DNA of 64,000 nt from Okeania sp. KiyG1 (lineage in GTDB: Bacteria > Cyanobacteriota > Cyanobacteriia > Cyanobacteriales > Microcoleaceae). Below the pieces are notes generated by a model. It was not told where the DNA came from. It worked only from the letters and a program-made list of their open reading frames with translations, and made no database searches. Position numbers and translations under genes: made by a program. Position 1 is the stretch's first letter, and each line of letters starts with the position of its first letter. Below are positions 33,104 to 61,261 of this stretch, piece after piece. The stretch is taken from positions 22,139 to 86,138 of the forward strand of contig NZ_BLZO01000113.1 of the NCBI RefSeq assembly GCF_014132355.1, in the 5' to 3' direction.

Positions 33104-33120
33104 CGACAGAAGTTGGAAAT

Positions 33121-36615: not shown

Positions 36616-36645
36616 GCTAACTCCTGAGGACTGACTCCTAATTAT

Positions 36646-45600: not shown

Positions 45601-45963
45601 AAGCCAAAAATTTATCGCTTTTAGGCAACAGCTCCGAAAGGCAACAGAGAATAGAGAATAGAGAATAGAGAATAGAGAATAGGGAATAGGGAATAGGGAA
45701 TATATAGGAAAAAAGTATTTTTGCTTGCTATGAGATGTACCCTGGTTAAAATTCAGAAAAAGGGAAGAAGCTAGAGATAAAAAGAGTGAATTTATACTGA
45801 AAGAAAAATTAGGATTCAAGCCTCGCTATTTTATATAATTGATATTACCGAAAAATTGTGATATAAAGCCTCTCCTTTTAAGGGGATAAAAAGAAAAAAT
45901 TTCCTTTGAGTCAATCCTATCCGTTTTAAAGGAGAGGTAATTCTAAATTCTAAATTCTAAATT
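45601..45963. repeat. Heptamer tracts and H1 fragment
   Basis: (AGAGAAT)n at 45648-45700, AAGCCTCTCCTTTTAAGGG and CCGTTTTAAAGGAGAGG (45868-45936, inverted H1 arms), and (CTAAATT)n at 45938-45970. No gene. Confidence 0.5.
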
Positions 45964-47521
45964 CTAAATTCTTGAATGACTCAGTCTTAAATAGTAATAA
46001 AAGTTTCTGTCTTGGTATTGCAATATATAACGGTTATCTAATAGCTTGATATTATTATAAACTTGTAAATTTTCTTGAAACATTGGGTCAGAATCTTTGA
46101 GTTCTATCAATTCTATTCTCACTTTTTTTCTACTTCTCGTAATTCATTTAATGTTTGGGGTAATTGCCAAATTACTTGAGTTGGATAATTAGCGATCGCT
46201 AGATAAAAGTTTTTTTCTGATATTACTACTTGTGGTTGAATTTGCAATTTTGAAATAACTTTTTGCACCCGCGAACTATAAGTATATAAACGTTCAGACT
46301 GTCGTCGTTGGAGATTTTTTAATTTGTGAAATGTGACAAAATTTGAATAACTTAAACACACCAAAATTCCTAATCCTATAGCAAATATCTTTTTAGTTGG
46401 TAATTGTGAAGTTAATAACCATAAACTTGCCACTGATAATATTGCCATTAATGGAGAAAAAACTGCCAACCCTCGAATCCCCATATCAATATATTGATAA
46501 AGTAAAAACTGCTAATAAAGCTGGCATAAAACTAATTATACTAAAAATACATAAATTTCTATAAGCTGTAAAATATGTCAATTTATGTCGTTCAATTGTA
46601 GGAGTAAATACCGCTAAAGAAATACCCCATAGCAGCAACATTGATAGAGTAATTGTTGAATAGACTGGAAACTTTTTAAAGTTAATGATCAGGCTGCAAT
46701 TGAATAAAAAATTTTCGCCCATCATTCTGAGCATATTCGTAAAACTAGATTGGGATAAAATTCTTGTTGCTGCATAAGGATAAATTTCTTGATTTTGAGA
46801 AAGAGGAATTAACACCGTGATTGATAATAATGTCAAAGAAAATAATAAACTCAATAAAGTTTGTTTGTAATCTTGATTTTTACTTATCCATAAAATAGCA
46901 ATACTAGCAGGAAGTAAGGTTAACATAAATGGTTTAATTAGATATGCCAAAGCTATTACTAAACTCAAAAATATACCTTTTAACCAACCTTCTTTTGTAT
47001 AAATAATAGAACTACAGCCACCATAATTACAGCAGCAGCAGATATTTCAGTCATTACCGAATGAGTCAAAACTAGAGTGTAAGGATAAATCAAGTAAATC
47101 AAAGCAGCACCAAAACCAACCCATTGATTAAATATATTTTTGCCAACTATAAATATAAGAAAAATAGTGATAATCAGTAGCAAATAATTTACAAAAATGG
47201 TGTTCTTTCATTAATGCCACCAATCAAAAAACCAACAGCTAAAATTAAAGGATAACCAGGCAAATGAGTATCCTTAGTAGGATAGCCTTTTTCGATAATA
47301 CTACTAGCTAAATAATGATGACTATTAAAATCAAAATTACGCACAATATTTTGAGCAACAGTATAGTAAAGTGTTTCATCATTCCAGCGAATTTGTAAAG
47401 AAACTGGTCTCGTAGAATAAAGAGCGATCGCTATCATCATCAAAAGCAATACATAAGGATAAATATTTGTCAATAAGTTTTTACAAATTTTCATTTTTGC
47501 ATAAATGAACAAGAAAAACAT
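45964..47521 (-). pseudogene. GT39/ArnT-like membrane glycosyltransferase, multiple frameshifts
   Basis: Five frames join to one ~515-residue polytopic protein: 47189-47521 (IYPYVLLLMMIAIALYSTRP, RWNDETLYYTVAQNIVRNFD, THLPGYPLILAV), 46980-47183, 46486-46968 (MSLVIALAYLIKPFMLTLLP), 46119-46484, and a C-terminal tail to 45964 (LKDSDPMFQENLQVYNNIKL). The early Asp-Glu in the first loop and the HLPGYP motif are typical of the GT39/PMT-type family that uses polyprenyl-phosphate sugars. At least one break is a one-base loss in an A-run (near 46120), another a one-base gain near 46500. Divergent from the NRPS gene. Confidence 0.7.
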
Positions 47522-47768
47522 CTAAAATTTACAAATTTTGGTTGCATATTAGTAAGTATTCAGATATTCTAATTCAGCATTCAGCTTTTAACTTTAGATA
47601 ATTATCTCTATGTTTTTTTACCTTTTTTTCAATGTAAATCCTGATCTTGAAAAATGTTTAAAATAAATAAGCTTTGTAGTGAAGAGGCTATAGAATATAT
47701 ATAAAAGCAAAAGTAATGCAAAAGCTCAACAGGATGAACTAGCTTGTAACTTAGGTTTTGAAAGCAAA
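47522..47768. promoter_or_regulatory. Divergent intergenic region, presumed promoter of the NRPS cluster
   Basis: About 250 bp between the broken GT39 gene and the NRPS start. A TTGAAA (47649) and a TATAGAAT (47687) could form a promoter but the spacing is too long for a standard sigma-70 pair, so this is weak. No strong ribosome-binding site precedes ATG 47769. Confidence 0.25.
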
Positions 47769-50255
47769 ATGACAGAATCAATAACGAAATTTAATAGCGC
47801 AGTGTTTGCCCTCAACCTGCCAGTAGATAGTTCATACTCACAGCAATGCCAGAATCAACCGGCAGAGGATGAAATAATCTTCCCTGATTCTCTGAGTCAG
47901 TCACTTGATTTATTTTACAACCTCCTAGAACCATTTTGCAGTCGTGAAGAATCTCTACTGACCATATTTTTAGCTATATACAGCATTATTTTAAGCCGCT
48001 ATACTGGGCAAACAGATATTGTCATTGGCACATTGCCTATATACGATTGTCAGACACAAGAACAAGCAATGAGTTCGTGCTCAAATAGTATAGGGATTCG
48101 AGTTAGCTTTGATCCCTTAATAACGTTTCATCAGCTTCTAAAGCAGGTGCAAACAACCATTAAGCAGGCTTATACTCACCAAGACCTTTCATTTGAGAAA
48201 TTCACAGATATCACAGTGAATGGCCAAAATAATCTCCTATCAAGGCCTGAGGTATTTCTAGGGTTAACAAGTTCATTTGAGCAAAGTGTTTCTGCTGAAA
48301 TGAACTTGTCCCAGGCATTGTTGAATGCCAGTACAAATTATAAGATGGCGCTGTGGATGTCAAGACATCAAGAGAGACTATGTCTCCGTATAGTCTACAA
48401 CAGTGTACTTTTTTCTAGCTTACGCATTAAGTCTATGCTAGACCAATTTCATACACTATTGAACCAGGCTGTTATTAAGCCAGATGATGTTATCGAATCA
48501 TATTCATTAATTACATCTGAATCCCAAAAGCTTCTACCTAACCCTGGTCTTCAGATTTCGTCGCCTACGCAGAACCTAGTTGGTCAGCAATTTCTCAAGC
48601 AAGCATCTATCCATCCGAACGATCTGGCTGTTCGGCAACATGAGAAAAGTTTTACCTATGGTGAGCTTCGGCAGCGTGCTGAAGTTGTGGCGCGTGTTCT
48701 TCTGTTCGAAGGTCTTGAACAGGGAGAGGTTGTAGCGGTTTATGGAACGAGTAGCTTCGGGCTAATCACTACGGCACTAGGAGTGTTGTTAGGTGGAGGC
48801 GCTTTTTTGTTTGTTGATCCGAACCTTCCTTTGGATCGAGTGCAGGTCATGCTGCAACAGGCAACTGTTAAGTATGTGATTTTACTCTCTGGTTCCCCAA
48901 TGCCTGACCTGGCTGACCTCAGCCTTCCTTATCTTTATGTAGACGCTAAAAGTGGTGAAATAGATTCATCTCACTTAACTGAACTAGCATGGACAAGAAG
49001 CCTTCCAGAAGTGCAAGCTGATGATCCTGCTTATGTGTTTTTTACATCAGGAACTACAGGAACGCCAAAAGGCATTCTTGGACTCCAAAAGTCCCTCGCC
49101 CACTTTATAAACTGGCAGCGAGAGGAGTTTTCAATTGATAAGTCAGATCGTTGCGCTCAACTAACGGCTATTTCCTTCGATGTCGTGCTTCGCGATATTT
49201 TTCTACCACTGACCAGCGGAGCTGCTCTGTGCATACCTAAGCAGTTGCAAATGTCCCCGGTTCAAATCCTAGATTGGCTGCAAGATGAACAAATTACTGT
49301 CATTCATATTGTACCTACGTTGGCACAGTTCTGGCTTGACTATGCGCCTGCAAACTTTGAATTGAACTCCTTGCGATGGGTCTTTTTTTCAGGTGAACCG
49401 CTGACTGATAAACTCCTAAGGCAATGGCACGAAACCTTAACAACTGAAGCAAAGATTATAAACCTTTATGGCCCCACAGAAACCTGTTTAGTAAAGTGTT
49501 ATCACCAAGTCTCTGAAGACATCTATGCTGGAATTCAACCTATAGGAAAACCACTACCCGATGCACAAGCTCTAGTTCTATCCTCTAACGGTCGTCTCTG
49601 TGGCATCAGTGAAATCGGTGAAATTGTTATTCGTACTCCATTTAGGACGTCTGGTTACCTTCCTCTTAGTACTGATAAGAAATGTTTTGTCCCTAACCAC
49701 TTCACCAAATATCCTGATGATCTGATTTACTACACAGGGGATATCGGACGTTATCATCCCCTTGGTATCCTTGAGATTTTAGGTCGTTCTGACGATCAGG
49801 TAAAAATCAATGGAATTCGGATAGAGCCAGCAGAAGTTACGGCTGTGCTTTCAAGACATTCAGATGTGCGAAATTGTGTAGTTATTCCTATTAGTTCAAC
49901 TGAGCATTTACCCTATCTAGTTGCATACATTGTTACCTCAACCGAAAAGGAAGAGAGTGAATTTCAAGGCGAATTAAAGGCGTTCTTAACTCAAAAACTT
50001 CCAGCGGCATTTGTGCCCTCGGTTTTCATCTTTTTACCAGAATTACCCCGGAAGAGCAATGGTAAGGTTGATCGGCATGCGCTTCCAATTCCCAATCGAC
50101 AGACTCAAGTGGCAGTGGATGAAGCACTTGCTCCCCGGAACCTTGCCGAACGTCGTCTGGCTTTGATTTGGAAAAGCATACTCAATAGAAGCTCCATCAA
50201 TCTTCAGGATAACTTTTTTGACCTAGGGGAACTTCGCTGCAAGCTTTGTATTTAG
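47769..50255 (+). CDS. Non-ribosomal peptide synthetase: half C domain, A domain, start of PCP
   Basis: 828 residues. Residues 1-255 match only the second half of a condensation domain (YTGQTDIVIGTLPIYDCQTQ, AYTHQDLSFEKF); the HHxxxDG active site is absent. The adenylation domain has A3 FTSGTTGTPKG (about residue 423), A5 NLYGPTET, A7 YYTGDIGRYHPLG, A8 GRSDDQVKINGIRIEPAEV and A10 Lys in SNGKVDR. By eye against GrsA the pocket reads D-V-R-H-F-S-L-L-V-K, close to the serine code but with Arg at the third position. The PCP begins NLQDNFFDLG and then shifts frame; restoring one G in the GGGG run gives LGGTSLQAL with the phosphopantetheine Ser, continuing into the next frame. Base composition is more GC-rich than the neighbourhood. 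Confidence 0.9.
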   Translation: MTESITKFNSAVFALNLPVDSSYSQQCQNQPAEDEIIFPDSLSQSLDLFYNLLEPFCSREESLLTIFLAIYSIILSRYTGQTDIVIGTLPIYDCQTQEQAMSSCSNSIGIRVSFDPLITFHQLLKQVQTTIKQAYTHQDLSFEKFTDITVNGQNNLLSRPEVFLGLTSSFEQSVSAEMNLSQALLNASTNYKMALWMSRHQERLCLRIVYNSVLFSSLRIKSMLDQFHTLLNQAVIKPDDVIESYSLITSESQKLLPNPGLQISSPTQNLVGQQFLKQASIHPNDLAVRQHEKSFTYGELRQRAEVVARVLLFEGLEQGEVVAVYGTSSFGLITTALGVLLGGGAFLFVDPNLPLDRVQVMLQQATVKYVILLSGSPMPDLADLSLPYLYVDAKSGEIDSSHLTELAWTRSLPEVQADDPAYVFFTSGTTGTPKGILGLQKSLAHFINWQREEFSIDKSDRCAQLTAISFDVVLRDIFLPLTSGAALCIPKQLQMSPVQILDWLQDEQITVIHIVPTLAQFWLDYAPANFELNSLRWVFFSGEPLTDKLLRQWHETLTTEAKIINLYGPTETCLVKCYHQVSEDIYAGIQPIGKPLPDAQALVLSSNGRLCGISEIGEIVIRTPFRTSGYLPLSTDKKCFVPNHFTKYPDDLIYYTGDIGRYHPLGILEILGRSDDQVKINGIRIEPAEVTAVLSRHSDVRNCVVIPISSTEHLPYLVAYIVTSTEKEESEFQGELKAFLTQKLPAAFVPSVFIFLPELPRKSNGKVDRHALPIPNRQTQVAVDEALAPRNLAERRLALIWKSILNRSSINLQDNFFDLGELRCKLCI

Positions 50256-51067
50256 TTGCCGAAATTGAGCGGCAATTTGGCTTGACCTTTTCTGTGGACG
50301 TTTTGTTTGAAGCTCCTACATTAGAGCAATTAGCTGCAAAAATTTCGACTGGAGGTGTTTCTACTGGAGCATATGTCACCTTAGTCAATGAAGGAACAAA
50401 GCCACCACTATTTTGTGTTTCTGGAACAGGTGGTCATGTTTTTCGCCTGCGCCCATTTGCTGTTCATCTAGAAACAGACCAACCTGTTTATGGTTTGCAT
50501 TTCCCAGGCATTGATAGTCACGAACAACCTTGTGAGTCTGTTGAAGATGTAGCCATCGATATGATCGAAAAGATTCGGTCAAAACAACCTTATGGCCCAT
50601 ATTATTTGGCTGGTTACTCATATGGTGGGCTTGTCTGTTACGAGATAGCACAGCGTTTGACTAAAGCAGGCGAAAGTATAGGTTTACTTGTACTGCTGGA
50701 TACATCACCTCACCTGCCGATTGTTGCAGATTACAACGAAAAACTCTTAGCCATGATTAAAGCTGAGCAAGAAGAGGAAGTCTTTGTATTTGCTCATCTC
50801 AGGAAGATTCTTGAAGCTAATGAAAATGCTGAAAGAAGATATTCTCCTCCTCTAGACATCTGTGGAAAAGTTGCATTATTTAGAACAGATCAATCCCACA
50901 CAGTCCACAACTCTCCGACATTAGGTTGGGATCGTTTAGTACCTTCAGGTTTAGCAGTTTATCCAATAGAAGGAACCCATGACACTATGCTTGAAGATCC
51001 TTATGTTAAAGGACTATCAGAGAAGCTTCGTATGGCACTTTCAAAGGAGTTGAAGTGTGTAATTTAG
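50246..51067 (+). CDS. NRPS C-terminal part: PCP remainder and type I thioesterase
   Basis: 273 codons in the frame that continues the NRPS. It starts inside the PCP (YLVAEIERQFGLTFSVDVLF, EAPTLEQLA) and goes on to a thioesterase domain: PPLFCVSGTGGHVFRLRPFA, catalytic Ser in YLAGYSYGGLVCYEIAQ, VLLDTSPH, and His in EGTHDTML. Thioesterases of this type release the finished acyl chain by hydrolysis or cyclisation. The break to the 47769 frame is -1, in GGGG at about 50226-50229. As an independent protein the start Met 50246 has no ribosome-binding site, so the pair was one ORF of about 1100 residues. Next gene starts 24 bp later. Confidence 0.88.
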   Translation: MYLVAEIERQFGLTFSVDVLFEAPTLEQLAAKISTGGVSTGAYVTLVNEGTKPPLFCVSGTGGHVFRLRPFAVHLETDQPVYGLHFPGIDSHEQPCESVEDVAIDMIEKIRSKQPYGPYYLAGYSYGGLVCYEIAQRLTKAGESIGLLVLLDTSPHLPIVADYNEKLLAMIKAEQEEEVFVFAHLRKILEANENAERRYSPPLDICGKVALFRTDQSHTVHNSPTLGWDRLVPSGLAVYPIEGTHDTMLEDPYVKGLSEKLRMALSKELKCVI

Positions 51068-51091
51068 TAGGAAATGTACAGGAACTGATAT

Positions 51092-51805
51092 ATGCTTAAA
51101 GGTTTCGTAGATTACAGAGTAGATGCAACAGTAAAGTTTGGAGGAAGTTTACTGGCCGACGAGCAAGCTTGTCGAAATACGGTTCGTGCCCTCCAATCTG
51201 CTGCACAACAAGGGAAAAGGCTCTTAGTTATACCTGGTGGGGGGCCAACAGATAATACGATTGAAGAACTTGATGCACGGACACCTTTCGTTCCAGATAC
51301 CCATCATCGAGCTTGCGCCCGAGCCCAGGATCAAACCGGACTAATGATTTCTGATCCTTGTTTTTCTGACGGACTCCGGGCTGTTGAAACATTGGAGGAG
51401 ATGAGACACACGTTAGAGGAAGGATTAGTTCCGGTACTTTTGCCGTCACGCCTCATCTTTGCTCTCGATCCGTTTGAACGGACATGGGAGATTACTTCTG
51501 ATGCAATGGCTGTTTGGTTTGCTTGGTTGGTTCGCTGTAATTTGACACTGATTTTGACTAATGTTGATGGTGTTTATCGAGACGGCAAGATTGGCTCGGA
51601 GACTCATTTACTTCACGAAATCTCTGCCTCTGAGTTGGCACAAATGGGGCATACAGCTGTAGATGCATGTACACCAGCGTTCCTAGTTGAGAATTGTCTT
51701 GATTGCTGGATTCTCAATGGAAAATATCCAGACCGCATTACCCAACTTCTAGTTGATGAAATTAAGCCAGTGGGGACTTTTGTCAAAGGAGGTCAGAATG
51801 GTTAA
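51092..51805 (+). CDS. Amino-acid-kinase-fold kinase resembling MfnE
   Basis: 237 residues. Substrate and ATP motifs of the amino-acid kinase superfamily: ATVKFGGSLLADEQ, LLVIPGGGPTDNTIEEL, HHRACARAQDQTGLMI, EITSDAMAVWFAWLVRCN, LTLILTNVDGVYRDGKI, and a C-terminal TAVDACTPAFLVE and ILNGKYPDRI. The W.(I/V)TSD...AW and VD....L patterns are those of the MfnE branch, which makes the diphosphate of aminomethylfuran methanol in methanofuran synthesis; FomA and isopentenyl phosphate kinase are more distant relatives. Likely phosphorylates a phosphate or hydroxyl of the cluster's intermediate. Start ATG is preceded by CAGGAACTGATAT. Its stop overlaps the next start by 8 bp. Confidence 0.8.
   Translation: MLKGFVDYRVDATVKFGGSLLADEQACRNTVRALQSAAQQGKRLLVIPGGGPTDNTIEELDARTPFVPDTHHRACARAQDQTGLMISDPCFSDGLRAVETLEEMRHTLEEGLVPVLLPSRLIFALDPFERTWEITSDAMAVWFAWLVRCNLTLILTNVDGVYRDGKIGSETHLLHEISASELAQMGHTAVDACTPAFLVENCLDCWILNGKYPDRITQLLVDEIKPVGTFVKGGQNG
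51785..51793 (+). promoter_or_regulatory. Strong ribosome-binding site inside the kinase gene
   Basis: AAAGGAGGT, 4 bases before ATG 51798. This fixes the start of the next gene at 51798 rather than the longer frame from 51753 and implies translational coupling, because the kinase stop (51803-51805) overlaps it. Confidence 0.75.
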
Positions 51806-52727
51806 GCCTCTCTTTGATTCTGATGATTTAGGGCTAGTTGTATTCTCACCAGACGCGGCCAGAAGCCGTTTGATTGGCTCGCTGGAAAGGGAAATTGCTT
51901 CCCTAACAGGATGTGTACCCGTCTTACGTCGGTGGTTTTGCCATACACCTGCTAGTATTGAAGCCTTTTACAGAGTAAGCATTCCAAACAATACTCCCCA
52001 CTGGCATCTAGTTTCGGCCTTGTTTAACTCAGGGCCTTCTCTAGCAGTAATTTGGCGAGGAGAAGATGCCATATCCAAGCTAGGTGCAGTAAAGGGTAGT
52101 AGCCATCCTGCCGAGGCAAAGTCAACTTCTATTCGTAGCCGTTACTGGTGCGATAATCCAGTGATGAATTTAATTCACGTCAGCGATGATCGAGAAACTG
52201 CCATCAATGAGATTGGGATTATTCAGACCTGTGCAGGAGAATTGGAAATCAATGATCAGCTGCTTGAATGTCTTCCGGAAGATCACACTATAACTATTTC
52301 CCGTGTCGAACATTCTGGAGTTCTAGTATTTCTCCGTGTAGTGCAATACCTTGTTGAGTCCTATACCAATATTAGACTAGAAAAGATTGAGCTTCCTGAG
52401 AGTGGTTCAGCTAAACTATCCCAATCTATTGCACGGACTAAGCTAGAAGAATATGCTGATGCTTATCAGGATGTATCTGCATGTATTCAGCTTTTTCTAG
52501 AGGGATCATCCGATACAATTAGTCACCTAGAATCCCTAGTTCCCTTGACTGCATGGGACAAATTAGCGGTTTCTTGCGGTGTTGTTGCCCGTAGGCAATG
52601 GAATCGTTCTTCACTTTGGGAAACGATTGAAAGCATCCGTTCAATATTATTGGCAGAGCATCAATGGATATTTAGCGGCAGTGCTGCACTGCAATACATG
52701 GTTTTAAATGTAAGCCGAATGATATAG
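51798..52727 (+). CDS. NDK-like domain protein, N-terminal part of an NDK-nucleotidyltransferase fusion
   Basis: 309 residues in this frame. Residues 8-145 resemble nucleoside diphosphate kinase: LGLVVFSPDAARSRLIGS (usual K.DAV becomes S.DAA, losing the NDK Lys), PSLAVIWRGEDAISKLGAVK, SSHPAEAKSTSIRSRY, and NLIHVSDDRETAINEI with the catalytic-type His. A middle helical region of about 140 residues (RVVQYLVESYTNIRLEKIEL onward) is unknown. The last residues FSGSAALQYMVLN are the start of a nucleotidyltransferase core (GSxAL). This frame ends VSRMI at 52727; the domain continues in the -1 frame at 52709. NDK fold assignment is by motif. Confidence 0.75.
   Translation: MVKPLFDSDDLGLVVFSPDAARSRLIGSLEREIASLTGCVPVLRRWFCHTPASIEAFYRVSIPNNTPHWHLVSALFNSGPSLAVIWRGEDAISKLGAVKGSSHPAEAKSTSIRSRYWCDNPVMNLIHVSDDRETAINEIGIIQTCAGELEINDQLLECLPEDHTITISRVEHSGVLVFLRVVQYLVESYTNIRLEKIELPESGSAKLSQSIARTKLEEYADAYQDVSACIQLFLEGSSDTISHLESLVPLTAWDKLAVSCGVVARRQWNRSSLWETIESIRSILLAEHQWIFSGSAALQYMVLNVSRMI
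52703..52709 (+). promoter_or_regulatory. Candidate -1 ribosomal frameshift heptamer T TTA AAT
   Basis: In the 51798 frame the codons are GTT TTA AAT GTA. T TTA AAT fits X XXY YYZ exactly. A -1 slip moves the next codon to TGT at 52709, precisely entering the frame that encodes CKPNDIDIWCS. Without a slip, translation ends six codons later. Equally explained by one lost A in a short A-run. No strong downstream hairpin is obvious by eye. Confidence 0.4.
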
Positions 52728-53140
52728 ATATCTGGTGTTCCAGAAAAGCATTTCAGACCATTAGTAATTTACTAGGTATCGAGAAAACACCCTATTCGGT
52801 TGCAGGCTTACATGGTGAAGCGATCAAGTGGCTGCATTGTGGCTGGGAAGTTGAGATTGTGAGTCCTCTCATCAACGCTGAAGGGATCGTTATCGGTGTT
52901 GATGATCGAATGTTGGTAAAGGCAAGCCCAAATAGACAAACTGAATCTATTGAAGACTTAGTAGCAGAGTTGTTATTGCTGCGACGTCCAGAGCCCAAGG
53001 CCGACTTAAAAAGAGCATTAAGTATACTTACTGTCCATGGAAAAATGATTGACCATGATTATCTATCTTGGCGCTTAAACGAGTGGAATGTACCGGAAAG
53101 CTTAATCAAGCTAACTCACCAAAATAAAATAATAAATTGA
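52709..53140 (+). CDS. Nucleotidyltransferase part of the NDK-NTase fusion
   Basis: 143 codons open from the slip site: CKPNDIDIWCSRKAFQTISN, LLGIEKTPYSVAGLHGEAIK, the third strand WEVEIVSPLINAEGIV, then VDDRMLVKASPNRQTESIED and the end LSWRLNEWNVPESLIKLTHQ. Together with GSAALQY in the previous frame this gives the GSxAL...DxD...(E/D) layout of minimal nucleotidyltransferases (the AbiEii/DUF1814-like or MNT-like group), which move a nucleotidyl group to a substrate or protein. An independent start is not visible (first Met 52859 is inside the domain), so a fused protein of about 447 residues is likely. Next gene lies 134 bp downstream. Confidence 0.65.
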   Translation, partial: CKPNDIDIWCSRKAFQTISNLLGIEKTPYSVAGLHGEAIKWLHCGWEVEIVSPLINAEGIVIGVDDRMLVKASPNRQTESIEDLVAELLLLRRPEPKADLKRALSILTVHGKMIDHDYLSWRLNEWNVPESLIKLTHQNKIIN

Positions 53141-53274
53141 CCAAGGAAGTAAATCCTATGAAAGTCAAGCTCAACAGCTTATTAAAGAGTATTTTTACCT
53201 GATAAACTCGTGATTTCAAAGACCATTTAATGTCACTGATAAAGTACACTGAAAAATAATAGGAGAAACAGAAA

Positions 53275-54543
53275 ATGGCACACCAAACCTTATTCAGAAG
53301 CGAAGAAGTATCAAATATAAAGATGGTCAGCGGTGACGGGATATATCTTCTTGATGAAAAAGGCAAAAGATATATAGATACGGCTGCAGGAACGTTTAAT
53401 TTGTCTTTAGGATATAGTAACCAAGAAGTTATTAAAGCAGCTTTTTCCCAAGCCAGCCATCTATTGCATTGCACCTCTTCTTTTACCACTGATCCAATCG
53501 ATAATCTGGCAATCAAGCTAGTTGAGACAAGTCCCACTAACTTGAAGATTGCTCATACAAAAGTATCAAGCGGTTCTGTAGCTATAGAAGGTGCGATCAA
53601 GTTAGCACAATATTACACTGGCAAAAAGGAAGTAATCTGCTTTCATCGATCTCATCATGGTCAAACTATTCATACAATGGCTATGTCGGGATTTAGTTTT
53701 AGGAATAAGCCTTTTCAATTTTCTAAAGATGGAATTCATCACGTACCGTACCCCTATTACTATCGTTCTCCTAATAAAACGCTAGAACAGGTCGATGATG
53801 AGGTACTTGCCTATATTGAAAATACAGTTGAATACTCATCACATGACCAAATTTCTGCAATTGTTATGGAGCCTATATTAGGTCTCGGTGGTAATGTGAT
53901 CCCAAGCAGACAGTTTTTAGTCAATCTCAGAGACTACTGCAACAAGAAGGGTATTGTTCTGATATTTGACGAAATTCAAACTGGCGTTGGTCGCACTGGC
54001 TTCATGTATGCTAGCGAGCATTTTGGTGTACAGCCGGATATCATGGCGGTATCTAAAGGTCTTGGAGGTACAGGATTTCAAATTTCGGCTATCCTGATGG
54101 AAGAGAAATTCAATGGAATGCCAGCAGATCATCACTCTTTCACCTATGGCTCAAATTTGATGAGCAGCGCTGCTGCAGTAAAAACGCTTGAAATAATTAG
54201 CCAGGCATCATTTTTGGAGAATGTTCAAGTTCAGGGACTTTATATTAATCAACGGCTGAACAAAATGCGGGATAAGTATGATTTTATTGGTGATGTTAGA
54301 GGAGTAGGCTTGATGATAGGTGTTGAAGTCGTGAAAGATAAGGCAAGCAGAGAGCCAGATGTAAGCTTAACGAATAGGATTAAGAAAGTGGCTCTAGCCC
54401 ATGGTTTAATCGTGAGAACCTCTGGATATGGAAGAGGCAATGTATTTAAAATCAGACCTTCACTGAATATCACCGGATCTGAGTCGAAAGAAATCTGTGA
54501 TATTCTAGATTCTGTAATGGCAGAAATAGATTCGAGCTTGTGA
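53275..54543 (+). CDS. Class III PLP-dependent aminotransferase
   Basis: 422 residues, normal for the family. N-terminal MVSGDGIYLLDEKGKRYIDT, GTFNLSLGYSNQEV, the SHHGQTIHTMAMSG region, FDEIQTGVGRTG with the Asp that contacts the PLP ring, and the Schiff-base Lys in AVSKGLGGTGF. Relatives act on GABA, diaminobutyrate, ornithine or amino sugars, and some are glutamate-1-semialdehyde-type mutases; the substrate cannot be fixed. In this cluster it could install or remove the amine of the activated amino acid. Start ATG 53275 has the ribosome-binding site AGGAGAAACAGAAA. The 53141-53274 spacer has no gene. Confidence 0.92.
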   Translation: MAHQTLFRSEEVSNIKMVSGDGIYLLDEKGKRYIDTAAGTFNLSLGYSNQEVIKAAFSQASHLLHCTSSFTTDPIDNLAIKLVETSPTNLKIAHTKVSSGSVAIEGAIKLAQYYTGKKEVICFHRSHHGQTIHTMAMSGFSFRNKPFQFSKDGIHHVPYPYYYRSPNKTLEQVDDEVLAYIENTVEYSSHDQISAIVMEPILGLGGNVIPSRQFLVNLRDYCNKKGIVLIFDEIQTGVGRTGFMYASEHFGVQPDIMAVSKGLGGTGFQISAILMEEKFNGMPADHHSFTYGSNLMSSAAAVKTLEIISQASFLENVQVQGLYINQRLNKMRDKYDFIGDVRGVGLMIGVEVVKDKASREPDVSLTNRIKKVALAHGLIVRTSGYGRGNVFKIRPSLNITGSESKEICDILDSVMAEIDSSL

Positions 54544-54667
54544 GAAACAGGATCGAATGTACAGAGACTATTCTCCGTCACAAGCTATGAAAAAAAATGT
54601 TAGCTATAGACAAGAAAGAGTCCTTGAAATTTTGCCCTAACCTTAAATGATATTGGAGGTTACTAAA

Positions 54668-55330
54668 ATGGGATTGGTTATTTTTGACTTAGATGAAACA
54701 ATAGTCAGTCTTGATACGGATGTGGCTTGGAGTGACTACCTCATCAAACATAACCGCGTAGAGGATATAAACTCATTCAAACAAGAAAAAGAAACCTACT
54801 ATCAAGCTTATTTGAGTGGAAATTTAGATATTCATCGATATCTCAGCGAGTTTGTTCTAAAAAATCTCAAGAAACATTCCCTCGATACACTACTTGAATG
54901 GCGTGAGCATTACATAAAGGAGATGATCCAGCCATTTGTGCTCTCCAAAGCGATTGACTGTATGCATAAACATAGTGAAAGTGGGGACTATACGATGATC
55001 CTCTCAGGGACTAACGATTTTCTCGTTGCAGGCACAAGTGAGCTGTTTCCTGTGAATTTTTGGGTGGCAACACGATTAGAGAAAGTAGGGGAGCGTTTTA
55101 CTGGAAATGTAATCGGCGAGCCTTTATCTGGAATAGTTAAGTTGCAATGGCTCAAAAGTTGGTTGTTAGAACATTCGGAATTTTGCTTAGAAGAAACAAC
55201 CTACTATAACAATTCTCATAATGACTTGACTTTCATGAGTACAGTGGGCTACCCAGTGGCTGTTGACCCAGATAATAAGCTTCAAGCCCATGCGGAAACA
55301 CATAAGTGGCCCATAGTAACTTTTCGTTAA
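54668..55330 (+). CDS. HAD-IB family phosphatase
   Basis: 220 residues. Motif I LVIFDLDETIVSLDTDVAW (nucleophile and acid Asp), a helical cap, motif II in TMILSGTNDFLV, motif III Lys about GIVKLQWL, and motif IV YYNNSHNDLTFMSTVGYPVA with the metal-binding Asp. This is the HAD-IB branch containing phosphoserine phosphatases (SerB). Removes a phosphate from a small molecule, probably a cluster intermediate. GGAGGTTACTAAA before ATG 54668 decides this start over the earlier ATG 54647. Follows the aminotransferase by about 125 bp. Motif III placement is less certain than the others. Confidence 0.88.
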   Translation: MGLVIFDLDETIVSLDTDVAWSDYLIKHNRVEDINSFKQEKETYYQAYLSGNLDIHRYLSEFVLKNLKKHSLDTLLEWREHYIKEMIQPFVLSKAIDCMHKHSESGDYTMILSGTNDFLVAGTSELFPVNFWVATRLEKVGERFTGNVIGEPLSGIVKLQWLKSWLLEHSEFCLEETTYYNNSHNDLTFMSTVGYPVAVDPDNKLQAHAETHKWPIVTFR

Positions 55331-55436
55331 TTCATTACGAGAGTATACTCATGCCATCATCCCTAGTCTGCTTGAGCTGTTTGATAAGGCCACCCACCTT
55401 GTGCAATTTTTCTACCAAAGAACACCAATCTTCAAC

Positions 55437-55640
55437 AATTAATAATGAATAATGAATAATGAATAATTACCTCTCCTTGAAACGGATAGGATTGACAAAG
55501 AGATGAAAATTTTTCTTCTCTTGGTCGATTGGATATGGCGCAGGTTTCGGAGCCATCCCATCCTAACGGACTGCTCCGCAAACGACCGCTTATTATCCCC
55601 GAGCAAGGGGAGGCGCATACCCACAATTTTTCGGTAAACC
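55437..55640. repeat. H1 hairpin repeat inserted in the gene cluster
   Basis: (AATAATG)-type repeats at 55440-55465, then CTTGAAACGGATAGG, CTTCTCTTGGTCGATTGG, ATGGCGCAGGTTTCGG, AGCCATCCCATCCTAACGGA, CGACCGCTTATTATCC, AGGGGAGGCGCATACCCACA. Same family as at 12.8, 14.2 and 40.6-41.3 kb. It lies between the HAD and IMPase genes, ending 14 bp before the IMPase start, and separates that gene from the preceding operon. Confidence 0.7.
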
Positions 55641-55654
55641 TGTCGTACTCTCTT

Positions 55655-56452
55655 ATGGAATACAGTAATTATCAGAGCTTTCTTTCGTTCGGTGACGAAC
55701 TTATCTCTCAAACCCGTGAGCTAGTTTTATCCTTATGGAAACAGGATAGGATTCAGGCAGATTTAAAAGCGGATGCTACTCCAGTAAGTGAAATTGACCT
55801 TAGATGCGAAGAGTTTGTCCGCACCCGTATCCTAGAGCATTTCCCACACCATGGTGTGATCGGAGAAGAATTTGGTAGCGAAAACGAAGATGCTGAGTTT
55901 GTCTGGACGATTGATCCCATTGATGGCACGCAAAACTTAATCAACCGTATTCCCACGTTCGCGACTATCCTCGGGGTCATGTACCGCCGACGTCCGGTTT
56001 TTGGTTGGATAGACCATCCCGTCTTGGGAGAATCGTTAAGGGGTGGAGTTGGCGTCGGTACTTTTCATAACGGCAGGAGGGTCTTCCTCGATGATAATCT
56101 AGAGACGCTGACACCTAAAGATATCATCGGAGCTAATTGCCCTGCCACTTTTGAGCAAGGCGGTCATTTAGAGGTTCTTTGGAAAATTCTCAAGTTTCAT
56201 CCCCACGTCCGAATGTACTATGACGCTTATGCTCACACCCTTTCAGTGTTAGGCTCCCTCGCCGTCATGGTGGAGTATAACGTCAAGGTTTGGGACATCT
56301 CAGCTACGCAGGCGCTGATTGAAGGAGCTGGTGGGGTTTACCGTCAGCTTGGACGAGACCTAGACGCTAAACCTCACACTTTGTATCATGCAGCGTTTGG
56401 AAAGAAGCGTGCGGTAGAGTTGATCTCAGAAGCAATTTTAGGAGGTTGTTAA
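55655..56452 (+). CDS. Inositol-monophosphatase-family phosphatase (HisN/SuhB-like)
   Basis: 265 residues. Metal and active-site motifs: HGVIGEEFGSE (Glu), FVWTIDPIDGTQNLI (Asp-Pro-Ile-Asp-Gly-Thr), and the C-terminal VKVWDISATQALIEGAGG (W.D). Mg2+/Li+-sensitive phosphomonoesterases of this family act on inositol phosphates, histidinol phosphate, fructose bisphosphate or PAP. Here it is probably the second phosphatase of the cluster. The open frame reaches 55529, but those 42 codons are H1 repeat sequence, so ATG 55655 is the start. The native ribosome-binding site appears lost to the repeat. Confidence 0.88.
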   Translation: MEYSNYQSFLSFGDELISQTRELVLSLWKQDRIQADLKADATPVSEIDLRCEEFVRTRILEHFPHHGVIGEEFGSENEDAEFVWTIDPIDGTQNLINRIPTFATILGVMYRRRPVFGWIDHPVLGESLRGGVGVGTFHNGRRVFLDDNLETLTPKDIIGANCPATFEQGGHLEVLWKILKFHPHVRMYYDAYAHTLSVLGSLAVMVEYNVKVWDISATQALIEGAGGVYRQLGRDLDAKPHTLYHAAFGKKRAVELISEAILGGC

Positions 56453-56679
56453 CGAAATCAGAAGTCAGAAGCGAGTGTGTAATTCTGAGGTCCCCTACGG
56501 GGCGCCTACTGTGCGGAAGTAATTCCGCACACAGCCCCTCCATAATGTAAGACACACTTCATTACAGTCAGAAGTTATTTTTGTAACGGGGATTTGAGCT
56601 CCGCTCCAAAAATATTGCGCCTTAATAAGGTGGGTTTTATACCCATGTTATTTTGATAAAGGATAGTGTAGTTCTCAAA

Positions 56680-56855
56680 TATGTTCAAACTGTGGGCATC
56701 AACAGAAAATGCCGTTGCACTTGAGAACTTATGTTAGCGCAGCTTTGCGGAGCGCAAATGTAGTGAATGCGGCTTTGAAGCTGATAGAGAGTGCGTTTAC
56801 GGAGCATGACCTAGGAAACGCTGCTATCAACTTGAAACACTATGTGAATCAGTAG
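56680..56855 (+). pseudogene. tnpB: Remnant of a tnpB zinc ribbon with GC-rich inserts
   Basis: After removing two inserts (GCGCAGCTTTGCGGAGCGCA at 56738-56757 and GTTTACGGAGCATGACCTAG near 56798) the frame reads CSNCGHQQKMPLHLRTY, CSECGFEADR and NAAINLKHYVNQ. Only the last 45 codons of a TnpB remain. The intergenic 56453-57164 otherwise holds AGTTGTTTTTGTAACGG-like repeats (compare 15105) and no gene. Confidence 0.6.
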
Positions 56856-57164
56856 CTTGAGTTTCAAGGAATTTTAAGCCTGCTCTCGAAGATAAGTTAC
56901 AGACTGCGGTCGGTGGTCTTCAGTGTTTGCGCAGCATTGCGTCAGCAAAGCAGGAAGCTAGCTCCAAAGCTTATGTAACCATGTATGGGTAAGTTTGGGT
57001 AAGTTTAGTATAACGGCGATTCTTCCAACTACATCCTCTATAATTCCCATTTCTCCTGACTCGGTCTTCCTGACTCCTCCCCTTACCACTCATACTTTTT
57101 CAGCAAATCCTAAGTATTTCAACAATTGGCTTCATTCAAACAAACCTTTCAAACATCCTCTTCC

Positions 57165-58172
57165 ATGGAAAATCCCTTATTGACTAACGAAAGAGAAGTA
57201 ATAGTAGAACGTGATGAATTCAGTTATTGGTTAGCAATCACAGCGCTGATACTTAGTCTAATATCCTTTTCTTTTGTGCCATTACTGATTCGATGGTGTG
57301 AAATCGAACTAAGCCCAGAAGCCACCATTTTCAATCGCTGCTGGATTACGACTTTAATCTTGGCAATTTGGCAAGGATTTCGTATCATCATCTGTCACTT
57401 TAAAACTCAGCAATCTGTCCCTGAACGACAACAAATTCCCAGAAACTTGCTATCGCAGATCCCCAACAAAACTCAAACTTATCAAATATATTTGATTTGG
57501 GGGGTTACTATAACTTCTTTTACAATTAATCTTGTTATATTGTGTTGGGCCCTGACTCAGACAAGTGTGGCAAATTCCTCCTTGATGCATAACCTTACAC
57601 CCATGTTCACTACTTTAGGAAGTTGGTTGATTTTTAAAACTCAATTTAACCGCAGATTTTTGATCGGAGTAGTTATTGCTGTAGGAGGAGCAATCATCCT
57701 CAGTATCAATGATTTTCAATTGGATCCTCACAAGATACAAGGTGATATTTTAGCCCTGATTTCAGCAGTAGCCCTCGCCACTTATTTAATGGTTGTAGAA
57801 AGGCTGCGGTCTCAGGTTAGCAGTCTAACAATCTTGTTTTGGTGTTCCTTGGCTGGGACTATTCTAACATTAATAGTGACGCTTACGTTGGGGGAAAAAC
57901 TGTTTCCAGTCTCATCCCAGGGTTGGTTCACTGTGGTCGCATTGGTAATCGCTGGTTCTCTGCTTGGTATGGGCCTCATGTCCTATAGTCTTCGTACAGT
58001 TTCAGCAAGTTTAGTGGCCTTAATATTTTTGCTCGATCCAATATTAACAGCGAGCGCTGCCTGGTTTGCCTTTGGAGAAACACTGAATTTCTGGAATGGA
58101 GTGTCATTTGCTATTATTATATTTGGAGTTTATCTAGGCTTAAAAGCAAAACCAGATAGAACCGACAATTAA
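57165..58172 (+). CDS. DMT superfamily transporter with two EamA domains
   Basis: About 335 residues, ten hydrophobic helices arranged as two EamA repeats (AITALILSLISFSFVPLLIR, SPEATIFNRCWITT; then GDILALISAVALATYLMVVE, SASLVALIFLLDPILTASAA, FGETLNFWNGVSFAIIIFGV). Members export amino acids, nucleobases or drugs. As the last gene of the stretch it may export the product of the cluster, though a TnpB remnant and repeats separate it. The frame begins earlier with TTG at 57126; the ATG at 57165 before ENPLLTNEREV is preferred. Confidence 0.85.
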   Translation: MENPLLTNEREVIVERDEFSYWLAITALILSLISFSFVPLLIRWCEIELSPEATIFNRCWITTLILAIWQGFRIIICHFKTQQSVPERQQIPRNLLSQIPNKTQTYQIYLIWGVTITSFTINLVILCWALTQTSVANSSLMHNLTPMFTTLGSWLIFKTQFNRRFLIGVVIAVGGAIILSINDFQLDPHKIQGDILALISAVALATYLMVVERLRSQVSSLTILFWCSLAGTILTLIVTLTLGEKLFPVSSQGWFTVVALVIAGSLLGMGLMSYSLRTVSASLVALIFLLDPILTASAAWFAFGETLNFWNGVSFAIIIFGVYLGLKAKPDRTDN

Positions 58173-58495
58173 TTCCTCGTCGCTAATTCTACCCACACCA
58201 TATTTACCTCACGGGGTGACAAGCACTTCAAAGCTATTGTGGGATAAGGATTTCAGCCTACATTCCGCACTTAAAAATGTAGTACAAAATAGGCGTAAAA
58301 CTAGAGAAGCTGTAATGAGCGTGCCAACTCATCTGTAATGTAGTCTAGGAGTAAACTTGAGCATATCCAACCCCCTTCATTCACCCCAACATCTCTTCGA
58401 CTTCAATCTTCAATCCCACATTCCGCAGATATTGAAGCAGATTTTATAATTATGAATTTTGTTAAGTATAAAGGCTGAAATGATTGTCTGGTAAT
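58173..58495. other. Intergenic with CCTACATTCCGCAC-type repeats
   Basis: Contains two truncated ends of the element nested at 58523 (CCTACATTCCGCACTT near 58258, CCCACATTCCGCAGAT near 58417). No gene. Confidence 0.4.
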
Positions 58496-59224
58496 TAGGG
58501 CTTGCTGATTAATTATCAAACCTACATTCCGCACGACAAAACGTAGTATAAAAAATTAGGAGTCAGAATCCAGAATTCAGAATTCAGGAGAAAATAATAA
58601 CGTAGAAATTGAGTATTTATGCTTAATATTTTCCCAAAAATTTGACTCTTAAGAAAGGTTAATGAAGATAATTTATACAGTATAAATACTTAGCAAAGCT
58701 GTTATTTTTATACTACTTTTAATGTTACAAATTGACGTGCGGAATGTGGGATTAAAAGTAGTATATAAATCCGTAGTTTTGTAAGTATTTATACTATGCA
58801 AATCATCTCAATTACTTTTTTCGTTGATCAAATTCTGATTAAAAATTTACGCATAAATACTTGCTATATTTGATTACTCAATCACGGCAGCTATGATTTT
58901 CTTCTCAAATTCTGTCTCCTGTCTCCTGTCTCCTGACTCCTTCTTCGGTTGCTACATTTTGTGGTGCGAAATGTGGGATCAAACCATTTACAAGTAAAAG
59001 TTTGAGCCTTCTTAGATTCCCAAAAAGTGCGCTGGTTTTAGTCTAAAACCTTCAAAAAGTTAGCATAAAGGGCAAACTAAGGACAGAAAAATTGAGGGAC
59101 AAAACTTAGCTCCTACCTCCTTGCTCATTCCCATTTCTCCCCTCCACGGTCGGGGTTAGGGGTGGGTTGTCTCCTGTCTCCTGTCTCCTACCTCTACTAA
59201 AAGACTAGTGAAGCGCAAACCCTA
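58496..59224. mobile_element. MITE family M2 copy carrying a nested element
   Basis: Left end TAGGGCTTGCTGATTAAT, right end TAGTGAAGCGCAAACCCTA. At 58523-58977 a different element is inserted. The remaining M2 core (AAAGTGCGCTGGTTTTAGTC, AAAAAGTTAGCATAAAGG) matches 59670-59947. A CCCTCCACGGTCGGGGTTAG block near the right end is shared with 44153-44461 and 59670-59947. Confidence 0.65.
58523..58977. mobile_element. Nested element with ATCAAACC flanking repeat
   Basis: Ends CCTACATTCCGCACGAC (58521) and GTGCGAAATGTGGG (58964-58977), inverted, about 26 bp with 4 mismatches. ATCAAACC occurs at 58515-58522 and again at 58978-58985, a target duplication of 6-8 bp (the CC may belong to the element). 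Internally it contains a single copy related to the 216-bp tandem repeat (AGTATTTATGCTTAATATTT, ATTTATACAGTATAAATAC). Confidence 0.7.
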
Positions 59225-59239
59225 ATTATTTCAGGCTAT

Positions 59240-59601
59240 TGAAGAGAGTTTTTTTTTTGAATTTACTCATCTTAACAGTATTTGTTTCGATAAATTTTTA
59301 GAATTATTTGCAGAAAAGTAACAGTAATGAAGTTCACATAATTCAGCTAGATAATGGTGCTTTACATAAAGCATTAACATTAAATATTCCTGAGAATATA
59401 GTTTTACTATTTCAACCCACTTATAGCCCACAAGTTAACCCAATAGAAAGGTTATGGCAATACATTAAGGAAGATTTTAAGTGGATTAATTTTGGCAGCA
59501 TAGAGGATTTACAAAATGCTCTAACTAAAAGTTTAAACAAATTAACCCAAAAAGTAATAGCTCGAATAACTGGCTGGGAATTTATTGTTGATGCTTTATA
59601 A
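59240..59601 (+). pseudogene. IS630-family transposase C-terminal fragment
   Basis: A short shifted frame FFEFTHLNSICFDKFLEL precedes the readable part: SNEVHIIQLDNGALHKALTL (second catalytic Asp), LLFQPTYSPQVNPIERLWQYIK (final Glu), EDLQNALTKSLNKLTQ. The N-terminal half is absent. Same transposase type as the 43785-44150 fragment, but carrying the opposite end. Confidence 0.75.
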
Positions 59602-59669
59602 ATGGCCAATATTTAGGCAGCGTTCGCGGAGCGTTGCGGAGCGCAAATCGCCTTTCAGTATCCAATATT

Positions 59670-59947
59670 TAGGGCTTGCTGATTAAATCTCAAAGCATTG
59701 ACATATAAAGACTTTAGCCTTTTTGTGGCCTTTAAAAAGTGCCTGGTATCACGTCTAAAACGCTCAAAAAGTTAGTATTTTAGGCGCATAGTTGAGCAGA
59801 ACAATCTTTGGACAAAACTTAGCTCCTACCTCCTCTATAATTCCCCGTTCCTCCTGTCTCCTGTCTTTCCCCTCCACGGTCGGGGTTAGGGGTGGGTTGT
59901 CTCCTGTCTTCTACCCCTACTAAAAGACTAGTGAAGCGCAAACCCTA
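59670..59947. mobile_element. MITE family M2 copy
   Basis: TAGGGCTTGCTGATTAAATC at the left, GTGAAGCGCAAACCCTA at the right, 278 bp. GCATTGACATATAAAGAC and AAAGTGCCTGGTATC are M2 core; (CTCCTGT) heptamers and CCCTCCACGGTCGGGGTTAG inside. Flanked by GC-rich TTCGCGGAGCGTTGCGGAGC at 59625. Confidence 0.65.
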
Positions 59948-60057
59948 TTTAAAAAGTGATCGCACCAAAGTATTTGTAACATTCTTTTTTCAAAATGGTA
60001 TAACAGATAAGCAGTCGCTGACTGCTGAATGCTTACATACAAACTAAATACAATATC

Positions 60058-60225
60058 ATGGGAAAGGCTAAATCTAAATCTGACTTACCAACCAAAATAT
60101 GCCCTGTATGTAATCGTCCTTTTACCTGGCGAAAAAAATGGGCTGAGTGTTGGGATCAAGTCAAATATTGTTCTGAAAGGTGTCGGCGACGCAAATCAAA
60201 TATTGACAAACAAATTGACATATAA
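60058..60225 (+). CDS. DUF2256 zinc-ribbon small protein
   Basis: 55 residues: MGKAKSKSDLPTKICPVCNR, PFTWRKKWAECWDQVKYCSE, RCRRRKSNIDKQIDI. The CPVCNRPFTWRKKW and VKYCSERCRR motifs with four cysteines define DUF2256, a small family widespread in bacteria, often next to photolyase or pigment genes; function unknown. It lies 45 bp before the asparaginase gene on the same strand. The start ATG follows AATACAATATC, without a clear ribosome-binding site; the conserved motif begins soon after. Upstream is a solo M3 right end (60012-60034). Confidence 0.85.
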   Translation: MGKAKSKSDLPTKICPVCNRPFTWRKKWAECWDQVKYCSERCRRRKSNIDKQIDI

Positions 60226-60270
60226 CCTCATACCTAAGTTTAATGATTCTGTAATTAATCACAACAAAAA

Positions 60271-61194: not shown

Positions 61195-61261
61195 TTCATA
61201 ATTGGGGGCAGTTGCCCTACGCAATCTAATATTTATTTGAAAAATACTCTCTAACTCCTTT

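Follow-up and report, generated by a model that had tools for sequence, protein, structure and literature searches.

A set of three genes or domains, encoding an AAK-fold kinase, a divergent NDK and an NTase, recurs between a biosynthetic cluster of the large-genome cyanobacterium Okeania sp. KiyG1 and rhizobial, Roseibium, and Acinetobacter plasmids. In the cyanobacteria and Acinetobacter a single fused protein carries both NDK and NTase; rhizobia and Roseibium encode them in separate genes. This recurrence on plasmids, with the NDK and NTase fused or split, is a new result, and no description of the AAK–NDK–NTase cassette was found in the literature searched on these enzymes. In Okeania the three activities are part of a block that is probably a horizontally acquired accessory biosynthetic island, and the cluster is under purifying selection. 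We tentatively propose, at somewhat less than an even chance, that the island is built on an organophosphate-activation triad, in which X-P would be converted to X-PP and X-PPP, followed by NTase transfer to yield a phosphodiester, combined with an NRPS-activated amino acid.

Organization of the cluster

The window analyzed here is a stretch of 64,000 nucleotides from contig NZ_BLZO01000113.1. Every activity named in a preliminary description of this DNA is present on the + strand between positions 47769 and 58172, but two frame breaks, not noted in that description, interrupt the NRPS and NDK-NTase genes, one in each. The features are as follows.

47769..50255, + strand: NRPS 5' piece, with the C-terminal lobe of a condensation domain, an adenylation domain, and the start of the PCP (PF00668, PF00501, PF13193)
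50246..51067, + strand: NRPS 3' piece, with the remainder of the PCP and a thioesterase (GYSYGG; PF00550, PF00975; dN/dS 0.094 vs Symploca)
51092..51805, + strand: AAK-fold kinase, MfnE-like, 237 aa (PF00696; NF040622, 121.7 bits; dN/dS 0.067)
51798..52727, + strand: divergent NDK domain with a helical extension, frame breaks near the 3' end (PF00334, 57.6 bits)
52697..53140, + strand: nucleotidyltransferase-like half of NDK-NTase (GS...PNDIDIW), in another frame (dN/dS 0.127; start approximate)
53275..54543, + strand: class III PLP-dependent enzyme of the aminotransferase, racemase, or phospho-lyase fold (PF00202; dN/dS 0.092)
54647..55330, + strand: HAD-IB phosphatase, histidinol-phosphatase-like (NF052360, 194.6 bits; dN/dS 0.098)
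55529..56452, + strand: IMPase-family phosphatase, HisN-like (TIGR02067, 158.3 bits; dN/dS 0.133)
57126..58172, + strand: EamA/DMT exporter, possible member (PF00892; 44% identical to an inverted EamA in Symploca)
47561..60008, no strand: extent of the island, absent from the site in two genus mates (comparison with G610 and G250)
59308..59601, + strand: transposase-like fragment inside the right edge of the island (ORF), which we take from its sequence to resemble an IS630-type DDE transposase fragment

The one-module NRPS with half a condensation domain, as first described, is borne out by the Pfam matches as a truncated C-lobe–A–PCP–TE. Only the C-terminal lobe of the condensation domain is present in the window (PF00668 positions 249–455 of 456), and its homologue in Symploca sp. 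SIO1C2, a single open frame of 1106 aa, covers only positions 196–455. A complete condensation domain, as in a canonical C-A-PCP-TE module, was not found by Pfam in the window or in Symploca, and the HHxxxDG motif belongs to the N-terminal lobe that is missing here. The Symploca protein continues with an A domain (PF00501), a PCP (PF00550) that retains its serine (LGGTS, within GGTSM), and a TE (PF00975) with GYSYGG; in the window the PCP is interrupted by the frame break, located at the site of this serine (~50226) within a G run. The A-domain codes, weak readings made by eye at presumed anchor positions, are D-V-R-N-F-A-F-L-A-K in Symploca and D-V-R-H-F-S-L-L-V-K in the window.

MfnE (NF040622) is the best NCBIfam model for the AAK proteins of the window, Symploca, S. 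garamanticum, and Acinetobacter (121.7, 118.8, 112.8, and 142.2 bits, respectively), and the UMP kinase model scores 43.1 at best on the same four proteins. MfnC–MfnE of the methanofuran/methylofuran pathway offer a parallel, in that an aminotransferase takes part there and an AAK-fold kinase has an aminated phosphomonoester as its substrate; the difference is that both cyanobacterial AAKs are below the NF040622 cut-off of 300 bits. Profile searches of the cluster genes gave no match to the partners MfnB and MfnF, and the methanofuran pathway is not known to include an NRPS, NDK, or NTase. No AAK relatives were found in a profile scan of viral contigs.

Both phosphatases also score below the cut-offs of their models, the HAD-IB protein at 194.6 bits (200.7 in Symploca) for NF052360 with a cut-off of 280, and the IMPase-family protein at 158.3 bits (168.8 in Symploca) for TIGR02067 with a cut-off of 275.15; the start of the latter in Symploca is equivalent to ~55655 in the window. 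The enzyme first described as a class III aminotransferase indeed has the class III PLP fold, but it could also be a racemase or a phospho-lyase, and racemase/epimerase chains are among the best PDB matches of its Symploca counterpart. An EamA/DMT protein is likewise present, but its membership in the cluster is less certain, since it is only 44% identical to the Symploca protein, the gene of which is inverted relative to the cluster.

The NDK and NTase domains

The listed ORF of the NDK starts with TTG at 51753, and an ATG is found at 51798; the gene overlaps the end of the AAK gene. Ten NDKs were aligned, and those of L018 (truncated) and L014 (frame-broken) were left out; the ten are not independent, as the window and L004, and L015 and L023, are close pairs. 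In the numbering of canonical NDKs, R105, N115, and H118 are kept in all ten, and K12 is absent from all ten, so that the canonical active-site set is incomplete; R88 is absent from eight and kept in L011 and L016, and a lysine precedes a conserved glycine in every sequence. In the core of the NTase-like domain, GS...PND.D, the G, S, PND, and second D are invariant in 9/9 sequences. The assignment of the NTase fold rests on these motifs, since the best Pfam match, DUF7277, scores 25.7 bits against a cut-off of 27, no PDB sequence match was found, and a third catalytic carboxylate is not clear in the alignment. An AlphaFold2 model of the NDK-NTase protein, made from two sequences, has a pLDDT of 37.

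The invariance of NDK H118 and of the NTase GS/DxD residues across divergent relatives suggests that these residues are catalytic. The loss of K12 might, on the other hand, reflect an NDK with little or no catalytic activity. This invariance bears on another reading, which the preliminary description had raised as a possibility, that phosphate acts as a leaving or protecting group only: the AAK would make a leaving group, the phosphatases would deprotect, and the NDK-NTase would be regulatory or binding. It agrees with the presence of a kinase and a pair of phosphatases in the same run of genes, and in methanofuran/methylofuran synthesis MfnE is taken to produce a pyrophosphate, F1-PP, as an intermediate (PMC8141765); with the apparently catalytic NDK-NTase residues set against these points, we consider it distinctly unlikely.

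The island and its counterpart in Symploca

The site of the island spans 12.4 kb in the window and less than 1 kb in two genus mates, where the two flanks are separated by 0.92 kb (G610) and 0.48 kb (G250), and the AAK kinase is absent in five genus mates. Among other cyanobacteria, the cluster was found only in Symploca sp. SIO1C2, where the order NRPS–AAK–NDK/NTase–AT–HAD–IMPase is syntenic. Strong blastn similarity extends over 47801–56406 and stops at the IMPase; the AAK kinase is 92% identical, and the NTase half of the window is 82% identical by tblastn to residues 313–454 of the Symploca protein. Co-transfer of a flank was considered and rejected, as the only blastn matches outside 47801–56406 are short repeats and one weakly matching part of EamA. 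The preliminary claim of a real, conserved cluster with an unusual enzyme set is thus supported by synteny in Symploca. The outcome that it named as counting against this claim, genes not co-located in any other genome, does not hold, because the block is syntenic in Symploca and the kinase–NDK–NTase core recurs in Proteobacteria.

The frame breaks

In addition to the break in the PCP, the NDK-NTase frame breaks near 52700, with the NDK and helical part running to 52727 and the NTase half continuing in another frame to 53140; in Symploca sp. SIO1C2 this protein is a single open frame of 457 aa. Both breaks could be real, and the window copy would then be a decaying, non-functional acquired cluster, as the two breaks hit key enzymes and the kinase is missing from the five genus mates. 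Three observations make this improbable. Over 12.8 kb of aligned flanks, 13 window-specific homopolymer deletions were counted against 3 insertions (counted where alignments reached 700 bases and 92% identity or more, in nine stretches from four genus mates: G610, G602, G596, and G250); a neighboring gene lies in four open stretches in the window and in a single open frame in two genus mates; and dN/dS against Symploca is 0.067–0.196 in eight measured pieces, remaining low in the sequence beyond each break. Because of the excess of homopolymer deletions in the flanks, the frame breaks in the window are probably sequencing under-calls.

Recurrence on plasmids

Matches to the AAK were found in 45 plasmid records, 21 of them with at least 37.9% identity and at least 86% coverage, and 16 of these 21 were examined (left out were NZ_CP120369, NZ_CP149874, NZ_CP127894, NZ_CP032687, and NZ_CP032692). 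One of the 24 weaker records, L028, was also examined and is excluded from the counts, and L029, being the same record as L010, is counted once. Within 10 kb of the AAK, 10 of the 16 loci have an NDK relative and 9 have an NTase relative; the AAK occurs without NDK or NTase in 6. The Acinetobacter locus includes an extra thymidylate-kinase-fold protein and a second NTase-like protein (a weak match, 18.2 of 21 bits). The class III enzymes of rhizobia and cyanobacteria are only ~25% identical over the aligned parts, so the products of the rhizobial and cyanobacterial loci are not necessarily related.

Nine of the 16 loci have annotated PEP-mutase-family genes close to the AAK, and the R. jaguaris PepM is above its cut-off (340 bits vs 319.55) with EDKxxxxxNS. 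These genes would agree with a phosphonate pathway in which the AAK phosphorylates a C–P phosphonate in the manner of FomA, the kinase that phosphorylates fosfomycin. However, the other six rhizobial motif-region matches listed carry changed PepM motifs, and neither cyanobacterial genome (the window assembly being ~92% complete) has a PepM above the TIGR02320 cut-off, their best hits lacking EDKxxxxxNS; a phosphonate pathway is therefore disfavored in the cyanobacteria, and we regard this reading as very improbable. The fosfomycin enzymes FomA and FomB resemble the present system in an AAK-fold kinase acting on a phosph(on)ate and a subsequent second phosphorylation, and differ in that these genomes have no PepM above the cut-off; FomB is not known to be an NDK. 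Of the literature searched, only the paper on argolaphos from Streptomyces monomycini (PMC8976061) has an NDK and an NTase together. Its cluster includes AlpE, a divergent NDK of 291 aa, the NTase AlpM, an aminotransferase, and PepM, a combination that also favors the phosphonate reading; cytidylylation is proposed for AlpM, and AlpE appears only in the gene table. It shares with the island the combination of NDK, NTase, and aminotransferase, homology of AlpE and AlpM to the island proteins not being assumed, and differs in that its phosphonate pathway runs through PepM and Ppd, its ligases are of the ATP-grasp and GNAT types in place of an NRPS, and no AAK is listed.

Proposed chemistry

The triad could alternatively follow nucleotide logic, with the AAK and NDK raising an NMP to NDP and NTP, the NTase nucleotidylating the amino acid or product, either for activation or for self-protection of the producer, and the phosphatases later releasing the product. 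The three-step order would be identical, bacterial UMP kinase is also AAK-fold, and NTases of the GS...DxD motif type usually use NTPs; the thymidylate-kinase-fold and weak second NTase-like proteins of Acinetobacter and the two NDKs that keep R88 point the same way. PntC exemplifies nucleotidyl activation in phosphonate biosynthesis. The phosphonate NTases have MobA-like or CTP_transf_like domains and use CTP, whereas the NTase-like domain here is of another type and is either joined to the NDK or located after it. Nucleotidyl activation is common in phosphonate clusters, and NTases, with FrbH, PhpF, and Fom1 as examples, are enriched in, and fused within, organophosphorus clusters (PMC6697681). 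Against nucleotide logic, both cyanobacterial genomes already carry a canonical NDK, the cluster NDKs lack K12 and mostly R88, and the best model of the AAK is MfnE rather than UMP kinase, leaving this alternative unlikely.

For the organophosphate-activation triad, every chemical step, as well as X and the product themselves, is inferred. The AAK-fold kinase would phosphorylate a phosphomonoester, X-P, to X-PP, by analogy with MfnE and isopentenyl phosphate kinase, and the divergent NDK would relay a phosphate through its active-site histidine to give X-PPP. The NTase domain may then treat X-PPP like an NTP, transferring X-P to an acceptor with release of PPi and formation of a phosphodiester. 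In the cyanobacteria, the C-lobe–A–PCP–TE protein would activate an amino acid, whose side chain is perhaps acidic, and the TE would pass it on to a nucleophile. An amine or amino acid may be formed or epimerized by the class III PLP enzyme, phosphate would be stripped late by both of the histidinol-phosphatase-like enzymes, and the DMT protein would export the product. A phosphodiester product would fit with three plasmid loci (L009, L011, and L012), which pair a phosphodiesterase with a sugar-type ABC importer. The first suggestion, a small product derived from an amino acid by way of phosphate, diphosphate, or nucleotidyl intermediates, fits, but the role of phosphate as a leaving or protecting group stays a guess; the pattern of the triad points more specifically to stepwise activation, from monophosphate through diphosphate to triphosphate, and then transfer.

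We can speculate further, though this broader view is doubtful, that the triad is a previously unrecognized mobile cassette. Its starting material would be a phosphate other than a nucleotide, or possibly a phosphonate in rhizobia, which it would convert to an "X-triphosphate" used like an NTP to make phosphodiesters. In cyanobacteria it would serve a metabolite linked to the NRPS, and on the symbiotic plasmids of rhizobia a phosphodiester resembling an opine. Building blocks for phosphodiesters are in most cases activated in cells as nucleotides. A triphosphate built on a non-nucleotide phosphate and then transferred would, if true, represent a new activation logic, and the presence of the cassette in a cyanobacterial NRPS island and on rhizobial plasmids, in some cases next to a phosphodiesterase and an importer, and an Acinetobacter plasmid provides a genome-mining handle on little-explored phosphorylated natural products.

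Organization of the cluster and its enzymes

In the source genome (11 Mb, ~92% complete; contig NZ_BLZO01000113.1), sequence and family searches matched every domain that the preliminary description had listed, and that list is correct for the following feature:

47769–58172, + strand: cluster of seven activities, from domain and family matches

The genes follow the order truncated NRPS, amino-acid-kinase-fold kinase (AAK), NDK-like/NTase-like protein (nucleoside diphosphate kinase-like and nucleotidyltransferase-like domains), class III PLP enzyme, HAD-IB phosphatase, IMPase-family phosphatase, and EamA transporter, with frame breaks at the PCP serine site of the NRPS and at the border of the NTase half. 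Cyanobacterial clusters with an NRPS are of a known kind; searches of the open-access PMC literature found no paper describing the AAK-NDK-NTase cassette.

The top NCBIfam model for the AAK is MfnE (121.7 bits, under the cut-off of 300), and among solved structures its best sequence match is 7qrh (87.6 bits, with the copy from Symploca sp. SIO1C2, the other cyanobacterium carrying the cluster); given these matches, a phosphate would be the natural guess for the acceptor. In the ten aligned members of the NDK domain (canonical NDK numbering), the phosphorylated histidine, R105, and N115 are all retained (10/10) and a lysine directly precedes the conserved glycine (10/10), while K12 is missing in 10/10 and R88 in 8/10, R88 being still present in the plasmid loci L011 and L016. 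Since both cyanobacterial genomes separately encode a canonical NDK (194–196 bits), the cluster NDK is not the housekeeping copy. The GS...PND.D core of the NTase half is invariant in nine members, and family and PDB sequence searches gave no family match over the cut-off and no PDB match for this half.

The nearest solved relatives of the class III enzyme include isoleucine 2-epimerase, other racemases, and aminotransferases; as racemases are among them, the label "aminotransferase" is left tentative, and the protein may be an aminotransferase or a racemase-type enzyme. Histidinol-phosphatase models score best for both phosphatases, all below their cut-offs. In both species the A domain has D235 and R239 at presumed pocket positions, as read by eye; aminoadipate-activating domains share R239, and the pocket hints at an acidic side chain. 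Because four other positions in this by-eye reading differ between the window and Symploca, the substrates may differ as well.

Frame breaks and genomic site

The window was compared with nine stretches from four genus mates (alignments of at least 700 bases and 92% identity; 12.8 kb of flank, within 30320–61204), counting as homopolymer indels changes of 1–2 bases in runs of at least four. In the window 13 runs are shorter and 3 longer, which calls for caution with any frame break in this assembly; the same 12.8 kb contain 33 non-homopolymer indels, 18 of them deletions. The gene adjoining the cluster (46119–47521) forms four open stretches in the window, as opposed to a single open frame in two genus mates (513 and 586 codons, stop to stop). 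On account of this window-specific split and the homopolymer shortening, both cluster breaks are most likely under-called bases; inspection of the second (NDK-NTase) revealed no clear homopolymer run. Past the breaks dN/dS is still low (PCP-TE 0.094, NTase 0.127). A partly duplicated stretch (45418–45819 and 46119–46484, common KKIFAIGLGILVCLSYSNFVTFHKL) lies where the membrane-protein gene adjoining the island ends.

Matches to window 45979–47560 and 60009–61217 are separated by just 0.92 kb in the genus mate G610, as are the flanks (window 47518 and 60033) by 0.48 kb in G250, and the AAK was not found at E 1e-20 in any of the five genus mates searched (0/5). Thus, an island of ~12.4 kb is missing from the same site in G610 and G250, through gain here or loss there. 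Close to its right end is the following feature:

59308–59601: transposase-like fragment

Elsewhere, a ~1.45-kb element is present as inverted copies (31655–33104 and 35172–36620), with dozens of copies in this genome and its genus mates (83–90% in most rows listed); it is an expanded insertion-type element.

Distribution in cyanobacteria and on plasmids

When genome_contigs (84,980 species) was scanned by pattern with the NDK-NTase protein as query, a method that detects close relatives only, one relative was confirmed, in Symploca, a member of the same order. In order, phylum, and class samples, which overlap and all count the window's own genome, the NDK protein is present in 2/291 genomes, the AAK profile matches 1/386, and two further searches gave 2/389 and 1/388. 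PMC7825088 lists the Symploca MAG and, in the available part, does not name the cluster. In this MAG the genes are open and ordered as in the window from NRPS (1106 aa) through AAK, NDK-NTase (457 aa), class III enzyme, and HAD to IMPase, the NRPS and NDK-NTase both being open frames. DNA identity is 73% for the NRPS and 81–85% for the remaining cluster, and apart from short repeats and one weak stretch in EamA nothing of Symploca matches beyond 47801–56406. Across eight pieces dN/dS is 0.067–0.196, a rough range since dS is ~1 or >1 in several.

A tblastn search of 72,556 plasmid records with the AAK gave relatives in 21 (identity 37.9–48.3%, coverage at least 86%), chiefly from Rhizobium and Sinorhizobium, but also Neorhizobium, Roseibium, and Acinetobacter. 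Of these, 16 loci were examined, and in 10 of them (L009, L010, L011, L012, L014, L015, L016, L018, L019, L023) the AAK has an NDK relative no more than 10 kb away, nine of which loci also have an NTase relative, the exception being L018 with a truncated NDK; the L014 copy is frame-broken. The NTase has a gene of its own in rhizobia and Roseibium; Acinetobacter and both cyanobacteria carry it fused to the NDK. The Acinetobacter locus, which looks biosynthetic, is unusual and contains several transposase genes:

L010:964–20849: fused NDK-NTase locus, Acinetobacter sp. SAAs474 plasmid

Its neighbours are split DXS-like genes, a DegT aminotransferase, two D-Ala-D-Ala-ligase-like ATP-grasps, a thymidylate-kinase-fold protein, a stand-alone adenylation domain, and an ACP.

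Six R. tropici-type loci (L013, L017, L024–L027) carry the AAK with neither NDK nor NTase; on R. tropici and similar plasmids it adjoins altered-motif PEP-mutase-like genes and nif genes. In 9/16 loci (L013, L015, L017, L019, L023–L027) the annotation places PEP-mutase-family genes close to the AAK. Of the seven scanned for motifs (all but L017 and L027), six have altered motifs, and the one copy with EDKxxxxxNS, from R. jaguaris, also scores over the PEP mutase cut-off:

L025:12296–14173: PEP mutase (340 bits, EDKxxxxxNS) and phosphocholine cytidylyltransferase-family gene near the AAK, Rhizobium jaguaris plasmid

A phosphonate version of the pathway is attractive in rhizobia and given argolaphos, whose cluster, in the available part of PMC8976061, lists a divergent NDK and an NTase together with PepM; against it, no PepM scored over the cut-off in either cyanobacterial genome (0/2 searched).

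Proposed role of the triad

Cells make and use NTPs through a mono- to diphosphate kinase, a di- to triphosphate kinase, and then a triphosphate-spending transferase. Since the enzymes of this NTP-like series form a dedicated set here, and the NDK site is altered, the favoured reading is that the triad would act on a non-nucleotide organophosphate, which the AAK would take from mono- to diphosphate and the NDK to triphosphate, to be spent by the NTase in a transfer giving a phosphodiester. The main rival keeps a nucleotide as the substrate, the same order of enzymes then serving NTP regeneration and nucleotidylation.

A phosphodiesterase occurs in some of the plasmid loci: in L019 a metallophosphoesterase (with a HAD phosphatase plus an ATP-binding fragment), and in L014 a short metallophosphoesterase. 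In L009, L011, and L012 (S. garamanticum, Roseibium, and S. americanum plasmids), the triad genes share the locus with a phosphodiesterase and with a sugar-type ABC importer, PLP enzymes being present too in L009 and L011. These neighbours are consistent with the phosphodiester reading, though not proof of it, and by analogy with rhizopines or agrocinopines the three loci look as though they serve both to make and to eat a phosphodiester.
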